A stretch of 64,000 nt of DNA from the NCBI GenBank assembly GCA_903928445.1, contig CAIYRB010000010.1, forward strand, positions 1 to 64,000, given 5' to 3'. The position numbers were made by a program, and so were the translations under genes. This document shows, piece after piece, positions 169 through 9,582 of this stretch. The notes beneath the pieces are model-generated. The model did no database searches, was not told where the DNA came from, and was given only the letters and a program-made list of their open reading frames with translations. Each line of letters starts with the position of its first letter. Within the stretch, counting starts at the first letter, position 1. This DNA is from an uncultured Pseudomonadota bacterium. Lineage in GTDB: Bacteria; Bdellovibrionota_B; Oligoflexia; Oligoflexales; CAIYRB01.

Positions 169-1059
169 ATGGCGACCATGGCGGACGCCAAGATGGGCAA
201 CCCCAACGCCCATTTCTATGCCGACTATGTTGAGTCGATTACCAAGACCGCGCTCTATGATGCGACCATCGGCAAGCTCAATCCGCACCCGACCGAAGAC
301 CAACAGCATGAGTTGCTGCAAACCAATTTCGGCAACATGGCGCGGATCCCGCTGTCGCCCTATTTGGGTGTCCAGACCTACTCGCTGCCCGTTCTGATCA
401 AACAGCTGACCGGCTTTCAGCCCAAAGTCTACAACGGCGCGCAAATGGGTGGGCAGTATTACTTTGGCCACCTGTACCTGGACAAATTCGCGAAGTTCTA
501 CGAACGCAATCCGTTCCACAAAAAGCCTGATCTGGTTATCGTCAACTTCAATGCCATGGATTTCATGGAAAATCGCAGTCCTGAGCACTACCAACAATCC
601 GTGCGGGCGTTTTACTCGCGCCTGACCGCGATGGCTCCGTATGCGACTCTGGTGATCACCGGTATGGCGGACCCCATGCCCTTGCTGATGGCTCCGGACC
701 GGGTGGCGGTGCCTCACGGCCCCAATGGACCGATCAAATGCTCGGATCTGTATAGGATTGTCAAATTTGGCAATAGTACCGGCGTCTACCCAGGCGCTCC
801 CGAGTCCCAGCTTGAAGCCGCCCGCCAGCGCCTCGCCGTGCTGCGGGGAATTCTTGAGAACGAAACCCAGCTCCTGAACCACGACGAGAGCGTTTACCCG
901 CACTTCAAGGGGCAGGCCCACTATGTGCCGCCAGCCATGGGCGAAGACGCTAGCGCGATCGACCACGTCGCTGCCGACTGCATCCACCCGGATCAGATCG
1001 TGCATGCCGCCATTGGCCAGCGCATGTGGGGGGTGATTGAGCCGCTGATTCAGCAGTGA
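169..1059 (+). CDS. SGNH/GDSL-type hydrolase, N-terminus disrupted
   Basis: Probable esterase or lipase of the SGNH superfamily. The block I motif GDS is encoded at 154-162, in frame but five codons ahead of the first ATG (169). The C-terminal Asp-x-x-His pair is D270/H273 (context DCIHPD). Between the in-frame stop at 94-96 and the GDS motif there is no ATG, GTG or TTG, so the catalytic Ser has no normal start. Frame 3 stays open from 12 to 155 and gives protein-like sequence (TGRRGRENSVSG), so a single-base frameshift near 133-146 probably separates the N-terminal part from this frame. The true start lies left of the window or in frame 3. Either the gene is broken or the sequence has an indel. 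The superfamily call is good; the substrate is unknown. Confidence 0.6.
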   Translation: MATMADAKMGNPNAHFYADYVESITKTALYDATIGKLNPHPTEDQQHELLQTNFGNMARIPLSPYLGVQTYSLPVLIKQLTGFQPKVYNGAQMGGQYYFGHLYLDKFAKFYERNPFHKKPDLVIVNFNAMDFMENRSPEHYQQSVRAFYSRLTAMAPYATLVITGMADPMPLLMAPDRVAVPHGPNGPIKCSDLYRIVKFGNSTGVYPGAPESQLEAARQRLAVLRGILENETQLLNHDESVYPHFKGQAHYVPPAMGEDASAIDHVAADCIHPDQIVHAAIGQRMWGVIEPLIQQ

Positions 1060-1397
1060 GTCTCATCCCACCTCGACAAGGATCATCTTATGAAATTCCT
1101 GAACGTTCGCATTGTCACTGGCGTCCTAATCCTATGCAGATTCTGCTGAACCTAATAAGATGCACTCGACGAATATCAACAGTTGGGTGATGCGCTACTC
1201 CATGAACTTGTTTCGGCATGTGGTATTGATTTGTCAAATATATAAACAAAAATATACCGATCTACTCTTGTAATGCAGCCGTATTGGCGTGATTCATGCC
1301 AGGATGGCCGATATCGATGCATCGTGGCAGTGGAATACCTCTTGCAAAGCCTTGTTTTAGCCGATTGGCAAACAAAAACTGCGTAAGGGGGTCTCTT
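1060..1397 (+). promoter_or_regulatory. Intergenic region with signal-peptide relic and promoter for the DUF4360 pair
   Basis: No full gene. At 1090-1149 an SD-preceded ATG (AAGGA at 1079-1083) opens a 19-codon reading frame that looks like a signal peptide (MKFLNVRIVTGVLILC) and then stops, possibly the front of a lost secreted protein. A sigma-70-like promoter may lie at 1231-1236 (TTGTCA) and 1253-1258 (TATACC) with a 16-nt spacer. It would give an about 130-nt leader for the gene starting at 1398. The stretch 1200-1260 is AT-rich compared with the genes around it. Confidence 0.35.
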
Positions 1398-2030
1398 ATG
1401 TCCATTCGTCGATGTATTAAATTGTTGACCGTGTCGATGTCTATGGTCGCCACAAGCTACGGTGGATCAGCGCTTGCCGATGTCCCAAGCTATGTGCGGA
1501 TTATCGGCATTACTTACGCTGGGAGCGGCTGCCCTGCGGGTTCGGTTGGCAACAATGTGTCGCCAGATTTTCAAGCGTTCACCTTACTGTTTGATCAGTA
1601 TCAAGCGTCCGCTGGTCCGGGGGTTCCCTTCGGCCAGAAGCGCAAGAACTGTCAGGTCAACGTCAGTATGGATATCCCAAATGGCTGGTCCTATACTTTG
1701 TTTACGGTCGATACTCGTGGTTACGTGTCGTTGGAGCCGGGAGTGCGGGCGATGGAGCAATCATCGTATTACTTCCAGGGACAACAACTTACTGGGCGGG
1801 AACAAACGATTATTTATGGTCCAGTCGACCGTAACTACCAAGCTACGGATCAACTCACCATGGCCAACCTGGTATGGTCGCCTTGCGGCGTCATGCGCTC
1901 GCTGAATATCAACACCGAGGTCCGCGTTGATAACAGTGCAGCTCCTAACAGCCAGGGCATGATCACGGTTGATTCAATTGATGGCCAGTTCAAGTTGATC
2001 TACGGCATTCGGTGGCGCCGTTGTAGTTAG
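1398..2030 (+). CDS. Secreted DUF4360 family protein (copy 1)
   Basis: A 210-residue exported protein. The start at 1398 is chosen over an in-frame ATG at 1296 because GGGGG (1387-1391) precedes it and a clean signal peptide follows (MSIRRCIKLLTVSMSM, cleavage after SALA). The mature part matches the DUF4360 pattern: GSGCPAGSVG near the N-terminus, RKNCQV, the DTRGY block, WSPCG, then VDSIDG and a terminal WRRC. The paired Cys suggest disulfides outside the cytoplasm. Function of the family is unknown. A paralog follows directly downstream, separated by a hairpin. Confidence 0.8.
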   Translation: MSIRRCIKLLTVSMSMVATSYGGSALADVPSYVRIIGITYAGSGCPAGSVGNNVSPDFQAFTLLFDQYQASAGPGVPFGQKRKNCQVNVSMDIPNGWSYTLFTVDTRGYVSLEPGVRAMEQSSYYFQGQQLTGREQTIIYGPVDRNYQATDQLTMANLVWSPCGVMRSLNINTEVRVDNSAAPNSQGMITVDSIDGQFKLIYGIRWRRCS

Positions 2031-2039
2031 TGAGACACG

Positions 2040-2097
2040 GCGAGACCCGGGATCTTAAGACGGTCCGGGTCTCGCTTCTCTTCGCTTATTTTTGTTT
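2040..2097 (+). terminator. Hairpin between the two DUF4360 genes
   Basis: A perfect 11-bp inverted repeat, GCGAGACCCGG at 2040-2050 and CCGGGTCTCGC at 2065-2075, with a 14-nt loop. It is followed by a T-rich stretch (TATTTTTGTTT at 2087-2097) starting 12 nt after the stem. It may act as a terminator or attenuator that lowers expression of the second copy. The spacing of the T tract is not ideal. Confidence 0.5.
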
Positions 2098-2110
2098 AGG
2101 AGTCGACTTT

Positions 2111-2785
2111 ATGCTCGCTTTGCGCTGGATCTTTGCTGCCTTGATGGTGGTGTCCTTGCTATGTCCTCGGCTGCTGGCCGATGCCCCAAGCGCTCATCCA
2201 TCTGGCATCGAGAGTATCTCCTACCGCGGAACAGGCTGCCCCGAGGGAAGCGTCGCAGCAAATCTGGCGCCCGATGCGCAAACGATGACTCTACTTTTTA
2301 GCGGCTTCGCCGTGGATACCTCGACGCGCAGCGGCAGGCCCATGCGTAAGGTCTGTGCTATTAAGATTGCTATGCGCACCGAGCCAGGCTGGCAGTTTAC
2401 CCTCTTCGGAGTGGACGTTCGCGGCTACGCCAATATTCAAGCCGGTGCGGTTGGCGTGCAGCAGATCTTGCATTCCTTTGGCGAGGGTAGTGGGCAGGCC
2501 ATTGGACGCCAGCAGCTCATCGGACCCTTTGACAATAATTTCTCCAGCCATTCGGAGTTGCCACTAGCGGCCGTTGAATGGTCGCCATGCGACTCAGGGC
2601 GTCACCGCCGGTTCCATTTACGAGCATCGATTACGGTCAGGCCCCGACTTGGTTTTCGTGATAGCGACGGCGAGCAAGATGACGCTGGTAAGGGACCGAG
2701 CTTTCCCTATGGCTATATGACCATCGATTCGATCGACGGGGGGATGGTGCAGCAATATCAGGTAGCGTGGCGGCGATGCACTTGA
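2111..2785 (+). CDS. Secreted DUF4360 family protein (copy 2)
   Basis: A 224-residue paralog of the preceding protein. The start at 2111 has AGGAG at 2099-2103 and opens a signal peptide (MLALRWIFAALMVVSLL, cleavage near LLADA). An upstream in-frame ATG at 2030 would put untypical residues before the signal. Conserved landmarks are GTGCPEGSV, RKVCAI, DVRGYA, WSPCD, DSIDGG and the last WRRC. It carries an extra 15-20 residue Asp/Gly-rich segment before the final block, so the two copies have diverged clearly. It converges on the exonuclease/GIY-YIG gene. Confidence 0.78.
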   Translation: MLALRWIFAALMVVSLLCPRLLADAPSAHPSGIESISYRGTGCPEGSVAANLAPDAQTMTLLFSGFAVDTSTRSGRPMRKVCAIKIAMRTEPGWQFTLFGVDVRGYANIQAGAVGVQQILHSFGEGSGQAIGRQQLIGPFDNNFSSHSELPLAAVEWSPCDSGRHRRFHLRASITVRPRLGFRDSDGEQDDAGKGPSFPYGYMTIDSIDGGMVQQYQVAWRRCT

Positions 2786-2798
2786 CGCTAAGGACGAG

Positions 2799-2848
2799 TC
2801 GAGGTCAATCGGTTCTAGGGTTAAACAGGCTCTAGTACCGTACCTCGA
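2799..2848. terminator. Interrupted hairpin between convergent genes
   Basis: Three nested complementary blocks: TCGAGGT (2799-2805) with ACCTCGA (2842-2848), CGGT (2810-2813) with ACCG (2837-2840), and CTAG (2815-2818) with CTAG (2832-2835). They can form one long imperfect stem. It spans the stop codon of the minus-strand gene and lies 14 nt past the plus-strand stop. No U tract follows, so it may be a bidirectional 3'-end structure without classic terminator features. Confidence 0.35.
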
Positions 2849-4490
2849 CCGTTGCTCCCTCGGCTCGCAGCCGTTTGATCTCCGTAAGAAGAATTCTGAC
2901 TCTGTCATAGACCGCGATGTCGCTCGACCATTGGCACATTGGGTGAGACCGACTGTCGACTTTGCCCGCATAATATGCCGCAGATGTTAGCCAGCGTCGA
3001 TCAATCACTAGGCCATGTTCCAACGTAAGCTGACGCCAGCGCATGTCCGCCCCTTTCCCTTCACTCCAGGTGATTTGACAATTGAACAAGGCCTGTAGAC
3101 GCCGACCGCGCAGCCAGTCGCGCGCAGCAGACACAAGAGTTCGTTGTATCCGCGCGACAAGCAGCTCAGCTGTCAACGGTTGCTCGGTATCGATGTCAGC
3201 ATCAGCTTCGGTTTCTGTCTCCGTCGCCGTCTCTGACTCCGTTGTTGCAGCCAGCAACGACTCTGCCAACGACTCTGCCACCTCACGGCGCTGATTCCAG
3301 AATCCAAGGGCTAAAATCTGCCTTGCATTAGGTTCTTTTTCATCAAAGGCTTGGCGAAAGAGGTCAAGTGCAGCTCTGGTGAGGCAGTCGCCCTCGCTTT
3401 CGCGCAGCAGCTCAGCCAGCTTACCGAAAACCGGGTCGTCCGTAGGCGTCGATGTATTCATCGCGTCCGCAATCATGTGCGGTATGATCATCGGCTCGGG
3501 TCGTGGATACGGACCAAATAGCTTTGTTTGGCCTAGGTCGCTGCTTGGTCGCAATTGTTGATCGACAAAAGCAGCGCGACGATCCAGTCGGCGCAGCGCA
3601 ATGTTGTAGGGTGGGTCCAGTCGCTTGATCTCATCGCTTTCGAGCAGCGCCGCCTCTACTCCAGTCGCGGTCGCTTCGATATCGATAGAGGCGACTTGAG
3701 TGAGCATTTCGAGTTTATCCGCGCCGTGACCACGGCGGTGGCGAAAATAGCTATTCACGCGCGACTTTAGCGACAGGGCTTTGCCGATATAGAGAATGCG
3801 CCCCGAGGCGTCACACATCCGGTAGATCCCCGGTTGATCTGGTAAGCGTAAGCGCGCGTCACGCGCCATGGGATAGATCCGCGGCCTTTTAGCGCTTGGT
3901 TTGGCCTGCTTAAGCCAGTCTTGTAGTTCGCTAAGTGTTCGTACAGTGGTGTCTTGTTCTAAAAGCTCGCAGACTCGGCGCCAGACCGCCGCAGTAGCGA
4001 GCACGTGACCGGCCGAGCGCCGTTCGCGGTCAACACCGTAGCCACAGTGGCCAGCGACCGCGCGCAGACTCAAGCTTGGCAAGGTTGGAATGAGCCGCTG
4101 CGCTATTTGGTGGGTACACAAGATAGGCCATGCTAGCTCTAGCCCGAGATGCTCCCGCCACAGTGGCAACAAAAACGAGGCTTCATAGCGCGCCACGTGC
4201 GCGACCATCACGGTGGCCGACGGCGCATCGCGATGCAGTTGTTGGATGGCCTCGGCTGGGGTTAGGGCTTGCGCCAGCATCTCTTGATCGATGCCGGTGA
4301 CGCGACTGATCTGCCTAGGAATCGGTTGCTGGGGATCGACCAGTAAACTGCGCAGCGTCGCTGCATCGGTGCCGTCGTTGGCTGCGCTACCGAAGCACCA
4401 GCCTAGTTCTAGTAGGCGTCCGTGGGTTGGACTGGCACCCGTGGCTTGCAGATCGATAAACAGGCAGGTCATGTGGCGTAGAGTCGGCAT
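2832..4490 (-). CDS. DnaQ-like exonuclease domain fused to a GIY-YIG (UvrC/Cho-like) nuclease domain
   Basis: A 552-residue fusion. Residues 8-175 have the DnaQ/DEDDh fold pattern, but the catalytic acids are changed: Exo I reads D13-L-Q15 (Glu to Gln), Exo II HVARYE has E103 where Asp is expected, and Exo III has H162 but A167 where the final Asp should be. Residues 215-300 form a GIY-YIG domain with intact landmarks: GIY 221-223, YIG 234-236, K237, R244 and the Glu in ALLESDE. Exonuclease plus UvrC-N-like fusions are known in several phyla and resemble Cho in nucleotide excision repair. An acidic Thr/Glu/Asp repeat (around 420-440) separates a C-terminal region I do not recognise. The exonuclease half is probably inactive; the GIY-YIG half should cut DNA. 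Confidence 0.8.
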   Translation of the reverse strand: MPTLRHMTCLFIDLQATGASPTHGRLLELGWCFGSAANDGTDAATLRSLLVDPQQPIPRQISRVTGIDQEMLAQALTPAEAIQQLHRDAPSATVMVAHVARYEASFLLPLWREHLGLELAWPILCTHQIAQRLIPTLPSLSLRAVAGHCGYGVDRERRSAGHVLATAAVWRRVCELLEQDTTVRTLSELQDWLKQAKPSAKRPRIYPMARDARLRLPDQPGIYRMCDASGRILYIGKALSLKSRVNSYFRHRRGHGADKLEMLTQVASIDIEATATGVEAALLESDEIKRLDPPYNIALRRLDRRAAFVDQQLRPSSDLGQTKLFGPYPRPEPMIIPHMIADAMNTSTPTDDPVFGKLAELLRESEGDCLTRAALDLFRQAFDEKEPNARQILALGFWNQRREVAESLAESLLAATTESETATETETEADADIDTEQPLTAELLVARIQRTLVSAARDWLRGRRLQALFNCQITWSEGKGADMRWRQLTLEHGLVIDRRWLTSAAYYAGKVDSRSHPMCQWSSDIAVYDRVRILLTEIKRLRAEGATVEVRY

Positions 4491-4631
4491 AGGCGCCGAG
4501 CATAGCCGAAAGGTGTCCTTGCCGCTGCTCTGAATCCCTAGGTGCAGCGTCGCTTGGCGCTTTTGACCGAGGCCATTTTAGATTGCGACCGGTGTCACTC
4601 ATTATAATTATATTAGATAGTTATAAATATA

Positions 4632-4670
4632 TTGGCGAACCTGATTGGCTGGGTATATACTGGTATATAC
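4632..4670 (+). promoter_or_regulatory. Promoter with twin palindromic operator for the nucleotidyltransferase/CopG pair
   Basis: Two copies of the self-complementary octamer GTATATAC lie at 4653-4660 and 4663-4670, exactly 10 bp apart, so on the same helix face. A promoter can be read as TTGGCG (4632-4637), 16-nt spacer, TATATA (4654-4659), placing the -10 inside the first octamer. Short repeated palindromes one turn apart are the usual target of ribbon-helix-helix dimers. The second gene of this pair looks like such a protein. Autorepression is inferred. Confidence 0.55.
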
Positions 4671-4699
4671 CAGATGAGTGTGATCCTAGGTGGATGGCT

Positions 4700-5173
4700 A
4701 TGTCCCTTCTAGAGCGTATCGTTGCAGCCTTTGACCGCGATCAAGTTCCCTATGCTTTGGTCGGCGGCTTAGCCGTAGCTCTGCATGGGGCGCCGCGCGG
4801 CACGATGGATGTCGACTGTATTATCCGACACACGGAAGTGGACTTTATCGCCTGTGAGCGGGCCTTGAGATCGATCGGGCTAGTGCCGCGCTTGCCGGTC
4901 ACTGCGAGCGAGGTCTTTCAATTTCGCGCAGAGTATATTTCGAGGCGCAATTTGATCGCCTGGAGCTTCATCAATCTCAGTCATCCCATGGAGGTGGTTG
5001 ACGTGATCATCACCCATGACTTGGCAACTTTGTCGACTGTCAGCAAGCGGTTTAGACTAGGCAAGATTAAAGTATTATCCCCACGAGACCTTATAGAAAT
5101 GAAGCGTCTCAGCGGCAGACCGCAGGATATTGAAGACATTAAGATGCTTGAGGCACTGCTTGAAGAAACCTGA
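4700..5173 (+). CDS. Nucleotidyltransferase-fold protein, possible toxin of a two-gene module
   Basis: A 157-residue protein of the polymerase-beta nucleotidyltransferase superfamily. The motif LVGGLAVALHG (G22, G23) is followed by R33, T35 and D37-V-D39, the usual GG...G.R.T.D.D signature of metal-binding minimal nucleotidyltransferases. The C-terminal segment with DLIEMKRLSGRPQDIEDI is typical of DUF6036/AbiEii-like proteins. Start 4700 is preferred because AGGTGG (4688-4693) sits 6 nt upstream; ATG 4694 is too close. The reading frame is also open back to 4583, but this would translate through the operator. The downstream CopG-like gene overlaps its end. Toxin, antitoxin or tRNA-modifying role cannot be told from sequence. 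Confidence 0.65.
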   Translation: MSLLERIVAAFDRDQVPYALVGGLAVALHGAPRGTMDVDCIIRHTEVDFIACERALRSIGLVPRLPVTASEVFQFRAEYISRRNLIAWSFINLSHPMEVVDVIITHDLATLSTVSKRFRLGKIKVLSPRDLIEMKRLSGRPQDIEDIKMLEALLEET

Positions 5174-5480
5174 CAAAAAGAACATCCGAAGCAAAGCTAA
5201 ACCCAGCGCAGCTCCCCGTCCGGTTCAATTCGCCAACCGAGCGAACGTCATTGGCGCCCAGGAAGATGTCGGACCAATCCTGGAGTTTATCGAGATGTTC
5301 AAAGATTTAGCTGATCCGAGCGCGCAACATCCAAGCAGGCTGATTAGCATCAAGGTGCCGGTACCGCTTCTGACTGCATTTAAATTTAAGGCCAAGCACG
5401 CCGGCATACCTTACCAGACGATGATTAAACGGTTGATGACGCAGTGGTTGAAAGAACACCACACCATCCCACCCACCTAG
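5160..5480 (+). CDS. CopG/BrnA-like ribbon-helix-helix protein, likely antitoxin and autorepressor
   Basis: About 106 residues if it starts at TTG 5160, which has TTGAGG 7 nt upstream; an ATG at 5130 gives ten more residues. Either way it overlaps the nucleotidyltransferase stop, which implies translational coupling. The N-terminal 40 residues are Lys/Arg/Pro-rich and look disordered. The C-terminal segment SRLISIKVPVPLLTAF followed by KFKAKHAGIPYQTMIKRLM matches CopG/BrnA antitoxins (beta strand, helix, turn, helix, with YQT at the helix start). It most likely binds the twin GTATATAC operator upstream of the pair. Confidence 0.6.
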   Translation: MKKPDKKNIRSKAKPSAAPRPVQFANRANVIGAQEDVGPILEFIEMFKDLADPSAQHPSRLISIKVPVPLLTAFKFKAKHAGIPYQTMIKRLMTQWLKEHHTIPPT

Positions 5481-6800: not shown

Positions 6801-8702
6801 ATGCCGCAGTCCGCCGAACATTTTGATATCATCGTCGTTGGCGGCGGCCACGCCGGCTGTGAAGCGGCTCTTGCTGCTGCCCGCACAGGGTCCAAGACCT
6901 TGCTGATCACCCTGGCGGTGGACAAGATCGGCGCGATGAGCTGCAATCCGGCGATCGGTGGGACCGCAAAGGGCCACCTGGTCAAGGAAATCGATGCTCT
7001 CGGTGGTGAGATGGCCAAGGCCATCGACGCTACGGGCATTCAGTTTCGCATCCTAAACCGCAAAAAGGGTCCGGCCATTTGGTCCTCACGGGCGCAGGCG
7101 GATATGGACCTGTACCGCCGCTATATGAAGCACAAGCTGGAGCAAACTCCGGGTTTACACCTGCGCCAAGATAGCGTCGAGGGTCTGCTGATCGCGCCCG
7201 GCGTCGATGGTGGACGGCCGCGTATCGAGGGTGTGGAAACCAAGAGCTTTGGGGCGTTTAGCGCCACCAAAGTGGTGATCACCAGCGGCACCTTTCTCAA
7301 TGGGCTCATCCATATGGGGCCGCTGAAAATCGCCGCGGGCCGAGCCGGTGATGCGCCGTCGATCGGTTTGGCTGAGTTCATTCGCGCCTTCGGCTTTCGC
7401 GTTGGGCGTCTAAAGACTGGGACGACGCCGCGGCTGGATGCACGTACGATCGACTGGAGTCAGCTTGAGGCGCAGCCGTCTGACGCCGAGATCATCCCGT
7501 TTAGCTTTGCCACTGAGCGCATCACGCAGCCGCAGCTGCCTTGCTATATCACCCATACGAATGCGCAGACGCATGCCGTCATTCGCAAGCACCTCAAAGA
7601 CTCGCCGCTATACAGCGGCGAGATCGTCGGCATCGGTCCGCGCTACTGCCCGTCGATCGAGGACAAGGTCGTTAAGTTTCCCGATCGGACCGGGCACCAG
7701 ATTTTTCTTGAACCGCAGGGGTACGATACCTGCGAGATCTACCCAAATGGTATTTCGACGTCCTTGCCGCTGCACTGTCAGCTCGAGTTCGTGCGCACGA
7801 TCGCCGGCTTGGAACGAGCTGAAATCATCCGTCCCGGCTATGCTATTGAATACGATTATGTCGATCCCACCGAGCTTGCCGCGAGCCTCGAGACCAAGCG
7901 TGTCGAGGGCCTCTATCTGGCGGGCCAAATCAACGGCACGACGGGCTATGAAGAGGCCGGAGCGCAAGGGTTGATGGCGGGGCTCAATGCCTCTCTCGCG
8001 GTGCACCGGCGGCCGGCGCTGGTGCTCAGTCGCGCGCAAGCCTACATCGGCGTGATGATCGATGACCTCATCACGCAGGGCACGGTCGAGCCCTACCGCA
8101 TGTTTACCTCGCGTGCCGAGCATCGGCTGTATCTGCGCGAAGACAATGCCGACGTGCGCTTGACGCCGCTTGGCCGCGATGCTGGTTTGGTCACGCCGGA
8201 GGCCTTCTCGCGCTTTTGCGAGCGCCATGCCCAGCTGCTTGAGGCGCTCAATTTTGCCCGGACCGCCGCCTGCGGCGCTTATCCTTTGCCGCCGGAGTTG
8301 TGTGAGGACAAGGACAACTCGGGCACCAAGCTGGCCGCCATACTTAGGCGCCCGGAGGTTTCCGCTGAGGCGTTGGCACCGTTTGTTCCAGAGTTGGCGC
8401 GGCTGCCGCTGCATATCCTGCGGCGAGTTGGTATCGAGCTGAAATATGAGGGATACATCGCCAGGGAGCTGCGGACCATCATGGACGCCGGCGAACTCGA
8501 GCGGATCCGGATTCCGGCAGGCTTCGTTTTTCACTCGCTGCCTGGCCTCCGCCGTGAGATCGTCGAGAAGTTGACCAAGCAGCAGCCAGAGACCTTGGCG
8601 CAGGCCTCGCGCATCAGCGGTGTCACGCCGGCGGCCTTGCAGCTGCTGCGGATCTTTATCAAGCAGTCCCAGTCACCTGGCACCCGGGAGTTGCTGACTT
8701 AG
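6801..8702 (+). CDS. mnmG: tRNA uridine-5-carboxymethylaminomethyl modification enzyme MnmG (GidA)
   Basis: A 633-residue FAD enzyme that, with MnmE, adds carboxymethylaminomethyl to U34 of tRNAs reading split codon boxes. The Rossmann motif is GGGHAG at 14-19. The family landmarks [45 protein letters not shown] and [17 protein letters not shown] are all intact, and the length is normal. The start is supported by AGAGG at 6787. First gene of an operon with thyA and folA. MnmG uses methylene-tetrahydrofolate, so the three products draw on one folate pool. Confidence 0.97.
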
Positions 8703-8724
8703 GCGAGGCCAAGGAGGGAAGCCG

Positions 8725-9582
8725 GTGAAGCAGTACTTAGACCTAGTCAAGGATGTCCTCGAGCACGGGGAAAGCATGAGCGACCGGACTGGTACGGGTA
8801 CAAAGTCGGTGTTTGGTCGGATGCTGCGCTTTGATTTGGCCGCGGGTTTTCCGCTGGTCACGACCAAGAGCGTGCATTTTAAGAGCGTGGTGCATGAGTT
8901 GCTGTGGTTTCTCCAAGGCACCGATGACACCTCCTATCTTGAGGCGCACAAAATCAATATTTGGCGGGCCTGGCAGACCCAGCTGCAGCATGTCGATGGC
9001 ACCAAGTATCCGAGCATTGGGCCACTCTACGGCGTCAATTGGCTGCGCTACAAAGCACCCGATGGCACCGAGATCAATCAGCTCGATCAAGTCATCAGCG
9101 AGATCAAGGCTCGTCCGGATAGTCGGCGTTTGGTCGTCAGCGCGTGGAACCCGGCGACTCTGCCCGATGCGTCGGTGTCGCCGCAGGACAACGTGCGCGC
9201 CGGCAAGGGGGCGTTGGCGCCCTGTCATGCTTTTTTTCAGTTTAGCGTACGCGACGGCAAATTATCCTGCATGCTGACGCAGCGCAGCGCTGATCTGTTC
9301 CTCGGTGTCCCGTTTAATATTGCGAGTTATGGCCTGCTGACAGCGATGATCGCCGCCCAGACCGGCTTGGGACTAGGCGAATTGATCTGGTCAGGTGGTG
9401 ATGTGCACATCTATCACAACCATGTCGAGCAGCTGCAGCTGCAGCTTGCGCGTACGCCACGAGCTCTGCCGCAACTCCTTTTGAAGCGTCTTCCCGAGTC
9501 GATCTACCATTATCAGTACGATGATATCGAGCTGCAAGGCTACGACCCGCATCCGGCGATCAAGGGTGCGGTTGCGGTTTAA
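8725..9582 (+). CDS. thyA: Thymidylate synthase
   Basis: A 285-residue protein that converts dUMP and methylene-THF to dTMP and dihydrofolate. The catalytic Cys is C167 in APCHAFFQF; other family blocks are RTGTGT, PLVTTK, RSADLFLGVPFN and GDVHIYHNH. It is about 20 residues longer than the E. coli enzyme, mostly from an insertion around 150-163. The start is GTG 8725 with AAGGAGGG at 8711-8718, 22 nt after mnmG. It is co-transcribed with folA, which recycles its dihydrofolate product. Confidence 0.96.
   Translation: MKQYLDLVKDVLEHGESMSDRTGTGTKSVFGRMLRFDLAAGFPLVTTKSVHFKSVVHELLWFLQGTDDTSYLEAHKINIWRAWQTQLQHVDGTKYPSIGPLYGVNWLRYKAPDGTEINQLDQVISEIKARPDSRRLVVSAWNPATLPDASVSPQDNVRAGKGALAPCHAFFQFSVRDGKLSCMLTQRSADLFLGVPFNIASYGLLTAMIAAQTGLGLGELIWSGGDVHIYHNHVEQLQLQLARTPRALPQLLLKRLPESIYHYQYDDIELQGYDPHPAIKGAVAV

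Follow-up and report, generated by a model that had tools for sequence, protein, structure and literature searches.

A clade of exonuclease-GIY-YIG fusion proteins with a replaced DEDDh site and a candidate EndoDinG-type helicase partner

The stretch of DNA analysed in this study, referred to as the window, comprises 64,000 nucleotides of a contig from an uncultured bacterium of the class Oligoflexia. A gene on its minus strand (P0001; positions 2832-4490) encodes a protein of 552 amino acids in which a pseudo-exonuclease, a GIY-YIG nuclease and an uncharacterised C-terminal domain are fused. The DnaQ/DEDDh-fold domain, assigned by alignments, AlphaFold2 and Foldseek, spans residues 8-180 (positions 3951-4469, minus strand) and has a replaced catalytic site; the UvrC-N/Cho-type GIY-YIG domain, with its key residues complete, spans residues 214-300 (positions 3591-3851, minus strand), and the C-terminal domain spans residues 305-552 (positions 2835-3578, minus strand). 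The Pfam search matched RNase_T (DnaQ-like) at residues 11-147 (E-value 5.7e-5) and GIY-YIG at residues 220-285 (E-value 1.5e-4), and returned nothing for residues 305-552. Among PDB entries, phmmer identified UvrC-N (1yd6, E-value 5e-15) and the PolC exonuclease (2p1j) as relatives. The nearest NCBIfam models were those of PRK07883, 'DEDD exonuclease domain-containing', with a best score of 189.9 bits against a cut-off of 495.

A DUF6036 nucleotidyltransferase gene and a CopG-antitoxin-like gene adjoin the fusion gene (positions 4583-5480, plus strand); all that the sister species retains of these two is a 180-bp remnant of the second. A CTGG-TATATA-CCAG palindrome is found near positions 4666-4682. 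On the other side, two tandem genes encode secreted DUF4360-type proteins (positions 1296-2030 and 2030-2785, plus strand), the first of which matches Pfam at 3.5e-62, while the second is a homolog with 40% identity.

The residues at the Exo I-III columns of the window protein were D13 (positions 4452-4454), Q15 (4446-4448), E103 (4182-4184), R157 (4020-4022) and H162 (4005-4007, all on the minus strand), and the DEDDh set is absent. D13 is the Exo I Asp, and Q15 and E103 occupy the columns of the Exo I Glu and the Exo II Asp. At Exo III, four comparisons agreed that R157 occupies the column of the catalytic His and H162 that of the Asp: the phmmer alignment to 2p1j, a MAFFT alignment of 49 sequences including 28 intact exonuclease-GIY-YIG sequences, a 51-row alignment with DEDDh exonucleases from phage contigs, and a profile-profile comparison by hhalign with a profile of intact fusions (E-value 3e-49). 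The near-invariant columns of the phage-contig exonucleases were D13, E15, D103, H157 and D162 in the numbering of the window protein.

The preliminary description had read the same open reading frame and the same letters at positions 13, 15, 103, 162 and 167, all of which were recovered on re-reading, and its replacements of Glu by Q15 and of the Exo II Asp by E103 fell in the same columns of the alignments. Its view that D13 and H162 alone remain of five catalytic residues held for D13 and failed for H162, which stands in the Asp column and is not the catalytic His. Likewise, the Exo III Asp was not replaced by A167, an ordinary variable column of no relevance to the site. With R157 in the His column and H162 in the Asp column, one of the five catalytic residues (D13) is left, not two. 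No intact acids were seen at shifted positions: within the exonuclease domain, acidic residues reach a conservation of 70% or more of the clade in three columns only, D13, E28, which is the usual Glu of the 'IE.G' motif, and E103.

The clade was defined as 20 sequences (alignment A1), comprising copies from 17 of 58 species genomes of the class and from three Legionella plasmids, with 24-87% identity to the window protein. In an unrooted tree calculated without the catalytic columns, a branch supported at 100/100 separates it from the other sequences. The Legionella copies are nested inside the clade, so horizontal transfer is likely. A scan of the genome contigs with the window protein alone as query returned one near copy. 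The sequence patterns used detected no clade members on viral contigs, and tblastn of phage and plasmid collections found them on Legionella plasmids only.

As the preliminary description had asked, the loss was examined across relatives, and replacement was seen in all 20 clade sequences. D13, Q15 and H162 were invariant (20/20), as was H98; position 103 was Glu in 16 sequences and Lys in four, and position 157 was Lys in 15, Arg in two and Asn in three. Only seven of the 172 columns of the exonuclease domain are invariant, three of them being D13, Q15 and H162, and the finding that Q15 and H162, half of the four replaced columns, are invariant corresponds to a hypergeometric p of 0.006. Between the window gene and its sister-species copy, dN/dS was 0.15 for the exonuclease domain, 0.17 for the GIY-YIG domain and 0.51 for the C-terminal part. 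The exonuclease domain is under purifying selection. The word 'eroded', previously applied to this site, does not suit it, because the invariance of Q15 and H162 at identities as low as 24% indicates replacement rather than decay. Apparently, the catalytic site was swapped for a new set in one event in the clade ancestor and conserved thereafter.

The GIY-YIG domain of the window protein contains the tyrosines of both the GIY and YIG motifs together with the Lys, Arg, metal-binding Glu and Asn. Seven catalytic-type positions (Y223, Y234, G236, K237, R244, E284 and N296) were each invariant in 20/20 relatives, which bears out the preliminary statement that this half keeps all key residues.

The structure of residues 1-200 was predicted by AlphaFold2 with a 51-row alignment of phage-contig exonucleases and these residues, giving a pLDDT of 93.3 and a pTM of 0.89. 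In the model, residues 13 and 15 lie in the strand 8-16, residue 103 in the helix 100-115, and residues 157 and 162 in the helix 155-180, which is where DEDDh residues normally lie. The top Foldseek match by E-value was 2p1j; DnaQ and RNase T exonucleases were also matched, and full-length PolC (9qpc) gave a TMq of 0.84 and an rmsd of 2.4. A DnaQ/RNase H-like exonuclease fold is thus predicted for residues 1-200. A prediction of the full protein on a two-row alignment (pLDDT 36) was set aside. The confident fold, the dN/dS of its domain and the invariant GIY-YIG residues agree with the earlier proposal that an exonuclease fold was retained without its DEDDh site beside an active-looking GIY-YIG half.

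A second exonuclease-GIY-YIG fusion is encoded in the genome of the window (L002, positions 796-2691, minus strand, contig C39). It belongs to the same wider family as the window protein (hhalign, 98% over the GIY-YIG domain), but it keeps the DEDDh residues and loses those of GIY-YIG, whereas the window protein does the reverse. The DEDDh set was intact in 21/21 of the class members examined, comprising the paralog and its orthologs, and the dead GIY-YIG pattern was common to all 21: Tyr was replaced by Phe or Leu, Gly by Ser, Lys by Ser and Arg by Glu or Asp, and the Asn was also gone. In fusions from other groups, both sites were intact (7/7). The two lineages are accordingly predicted from their residues to split the exonuclease and GIY-YIG activities reciprocally. 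The paralog lineage forms its own branch (100/100) in the unrooted tree. Since the clade occurs in Legionella, two separate histories of the clade and the paralog lineage are rather suggested than the duplication of one ancestor in this class. On a Legionella israelensis plasmid (L092, positions 2888-4656), a fusion with both sites intact lies beside two stand-alone genes, one for an exonuclease and a small one for a GIY-YIG protein.

The gene next to the fusion codes, in several relatives, for an XPD/DinG-type helicase that carries a PD-(D/E)XK domain at its N-terminus. The helicase gene of the window's genome was found on contig C197 (positions 7113-9485; L055, 7032-9527, plus strand), and the L055 helicase matched Helicase_C_2 (2.8e-36) and DEAD_2 (1.5e-8). 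Its N-terminal PD-(D/E)XK nuclease shows the conserved His, GR.DG and ExK, and a four-Cys FeS motif and a Rad3/XPD helicase core are also present; the nuclease, Walker and four-Cys motifs, compared as motifs only, were aligned in the copy of the window's genome and in most of ten copies. In the N-terminal PD-(D/E)XK domain and its motifs, the four Cys and the Rad3/XPD core, the partner helicase matches the description of EndoDinG (PMC11981726). The main text of that review mentions neither GIY-YIG nor UvrC.

Among the 58 genomes of the class, both genes were present in 14, the nuclease alone in three, the helicase alone in three and neither in 38, with a Fisher p of 3.7e-8 in a test that counts related genomes as independent. 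After collapse to genera, the counts were nine with both, one with the nuclease only, two with the helicase only and 18 with neither (p = 3.5e-5). Once relatedness was removed by means of independent pairs, for which a UvrC tree covering 30 of the 58 genomes offered only six, the association was not significant (p = 0.125); of the six pairs, 3.6 agreed, 0.1 disagreed and 2.3 were uninformative, and a test on these pairs cannot reach significance. A single gene was found in 6 of the 20 genomes having either, some of which may be explained by the draft state of the assemblies.

The two genes are adjacent on the same contig in six genomes (G004, G011, G021, G026, G033 and G038), and they lie on different contigs in 8 of the 14 genomes with both, the window's genome among them. 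A single operon of the window nuclease gene and the helicase gene in this genome was therefore rejected (contig C10 versus C197). Within the window's genus, two species have both genes, unlinked to each other, and the remaining four, whose gene neighbourhoods differ, have neither. On three Legionella plasmids (L052-L054) the nuclease and helicase genes overlap within DNA-repair islands, and their neighbours include umuD and a Y-family polymerase gene, with dinB, Ku, a UdgX-family gene or an SOS peptidase on some. The helicase homologs of Listeria and Enterococcus were not adjoined by such a nuclease. A literature search, with most subscription journals outside its reach, returned no paper on the clade or on the nuclease-helicase pairing. 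The co-occurrence of the clade with EndoDinG suggests a two-part DNA repair machine, hitherto undescribed.

UvrC-N and Cho incise 3' of lesions, DNA is opened by XPD-type helicases, and DEDDh enzymes use two metals in binding 3' ends. On balance, by a small measure, we favour the reading that the window protein is a repair endonuclease of the GIY-YIG type, that its pseudo-exonuclease is non-catalytic and binds DNA ends or a partner, and that the protein acts with EndoDinG. A digesting half that is presumably non-catalytic and yet strongly selected argues for a further function of this half, for instance in recognising ends or in docking. The clade ancestor would have swapped its metal-binding acids for the conserved D-Q-(E/K)-(K/R)-H set and so abandoned two-metal hydrolysis while keeping the pocket, in which basic residues would occupy the former places of the metal ions. 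The N-terminal domain has presumably lost its exonuclease activity, and its pocket may bind DNA, most likely gripping a 3' end, a single strand or the phosphate backbone without cleavage; such gripping would position the GIY-YIG domain for incision. EndoDinG, an iron-sulphur XPD-type helicase with its own PD-(D/E)XK nuclease, would open or track the DNA, and the two proteins may cooperate physically in a DNA-damage pathway and so serve repair.

Alternatively, the pseudo-exonuclease could serve protein docking alone, its partner being EndoDinG, a UvrB-like factor or the C-terminal domain of the same protein, with a pocket free of nucleic acid. Conservation of the domain despite the missing catalytic site and the recurrent association with one helicase would both fit such a role, and in MrfAB, two-hybrid data show that the exonuclease core contacts the helicase (PMC10889028). 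Docking alone, however, needs no invariance of Q15 and H162 in the former active site, whose positions, judged from the canonical fold, would be buried in DnaQ folds, and we hold this reading to be a minority one.

We consider it unlikely, and somewhat more so, that mobile elements carry the nuclease-helicase pair as an accessory or defence cassette with no part in repair. Its patchy distribution and its presence on Legionella plasmids point that way, as do the position of the L055 helicase gene in the window's genome, flanked by genes for a PIN-domain protein and a serine resolvase, and a distant score to type IV CRISPR DinG models; yet the plasmid neighbours are SOS and repair genes, and the fusion matched nothing among the PADLOC models beyond the generic DEDDh model.

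Improbable is a site that was rebuilt rather than lost, with D13, E103 and H98/H162 forming a different metal site for another hydrolytic activity: D13, Q15, H98 and H162 are invariant and position 103 is acidic in 16/20, but four members have Lys there and a single invariant acid is left. A degenerating or artefactual gene (decay, frameshift or mis-assembly), to which only the missing catalytic acids would point, is so improbable as to be negligible, and decay to a pseudogene was ruled out by the conservation and the low dN/dS, the frame being open in every clade member used and the type of replacement identical in 20 sequences.

Under the favoured reading of a GIY-YIG endonuclease steered by a non-catalytic partner domain, the clade makes the second job of the exonuclease half testable, the paralog and the window protein constitute a natural separation-of-function pair within the same genomes, and the EndoDinG group gains a candidate partner through the link to an XPD-type helicase-nuclease. 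More tentatively, and rather doubtfully as a whole, EndoDinG and a GIY-YIG nuclease steered by a metal-free, 3'-end-gripping pseudo-exonuclease may form a two-component excision or junction-processing system, in organisms in which an ancestral exonuclease-GIY-YIG enzyme was split into reciprocal half-dead paralogs.

The window protein has the same order of domains, a DnaQ-type exonuclease followed by a UvrC/Cho-type GIY-YIG domain, as the Cho-like+Exo or Cho+Exo fusions (PRK07883; PMC1564403), which match it in profile over both domains and for which cutting followed by digestion through the lesion has been proposed (PMC1564403). It differs from them in that both active sites were intact in the known fusions examined (7/7), whereas the window clade is without the DEDDh site; moreover, it scored below every PRK07883 cut-off (best 190 versus 495 bits), and its C-terminal part (residues 305-552) was not matched in profile by that of any of the seven intact fusions. 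An exonuclease fold without a working DEDD site has precedents in pExoDinG (PMC11981726) and PML PXL (PMC12934764), although these are different proteins with different partners and without a GIY-YIG fusion. PML PXL keeps one of the four DEDD residues and is without nuclease activity, shows phosphate-like density in its pseudo-site and binds G-rich single-stranded DNA or RNA (PMC12934764). In the repair of mitomycin damage by MrfAB, a helicase and a DnaQ-fold protein are paired outside UvrABC, as is proposed here, but MrfB lacks GIY-YIG and is active as a DEDDh exonuclease (PMC10889028). The window clade is a new form within a known family of fusions, with a replaced exonuclease site and a probable new partner.
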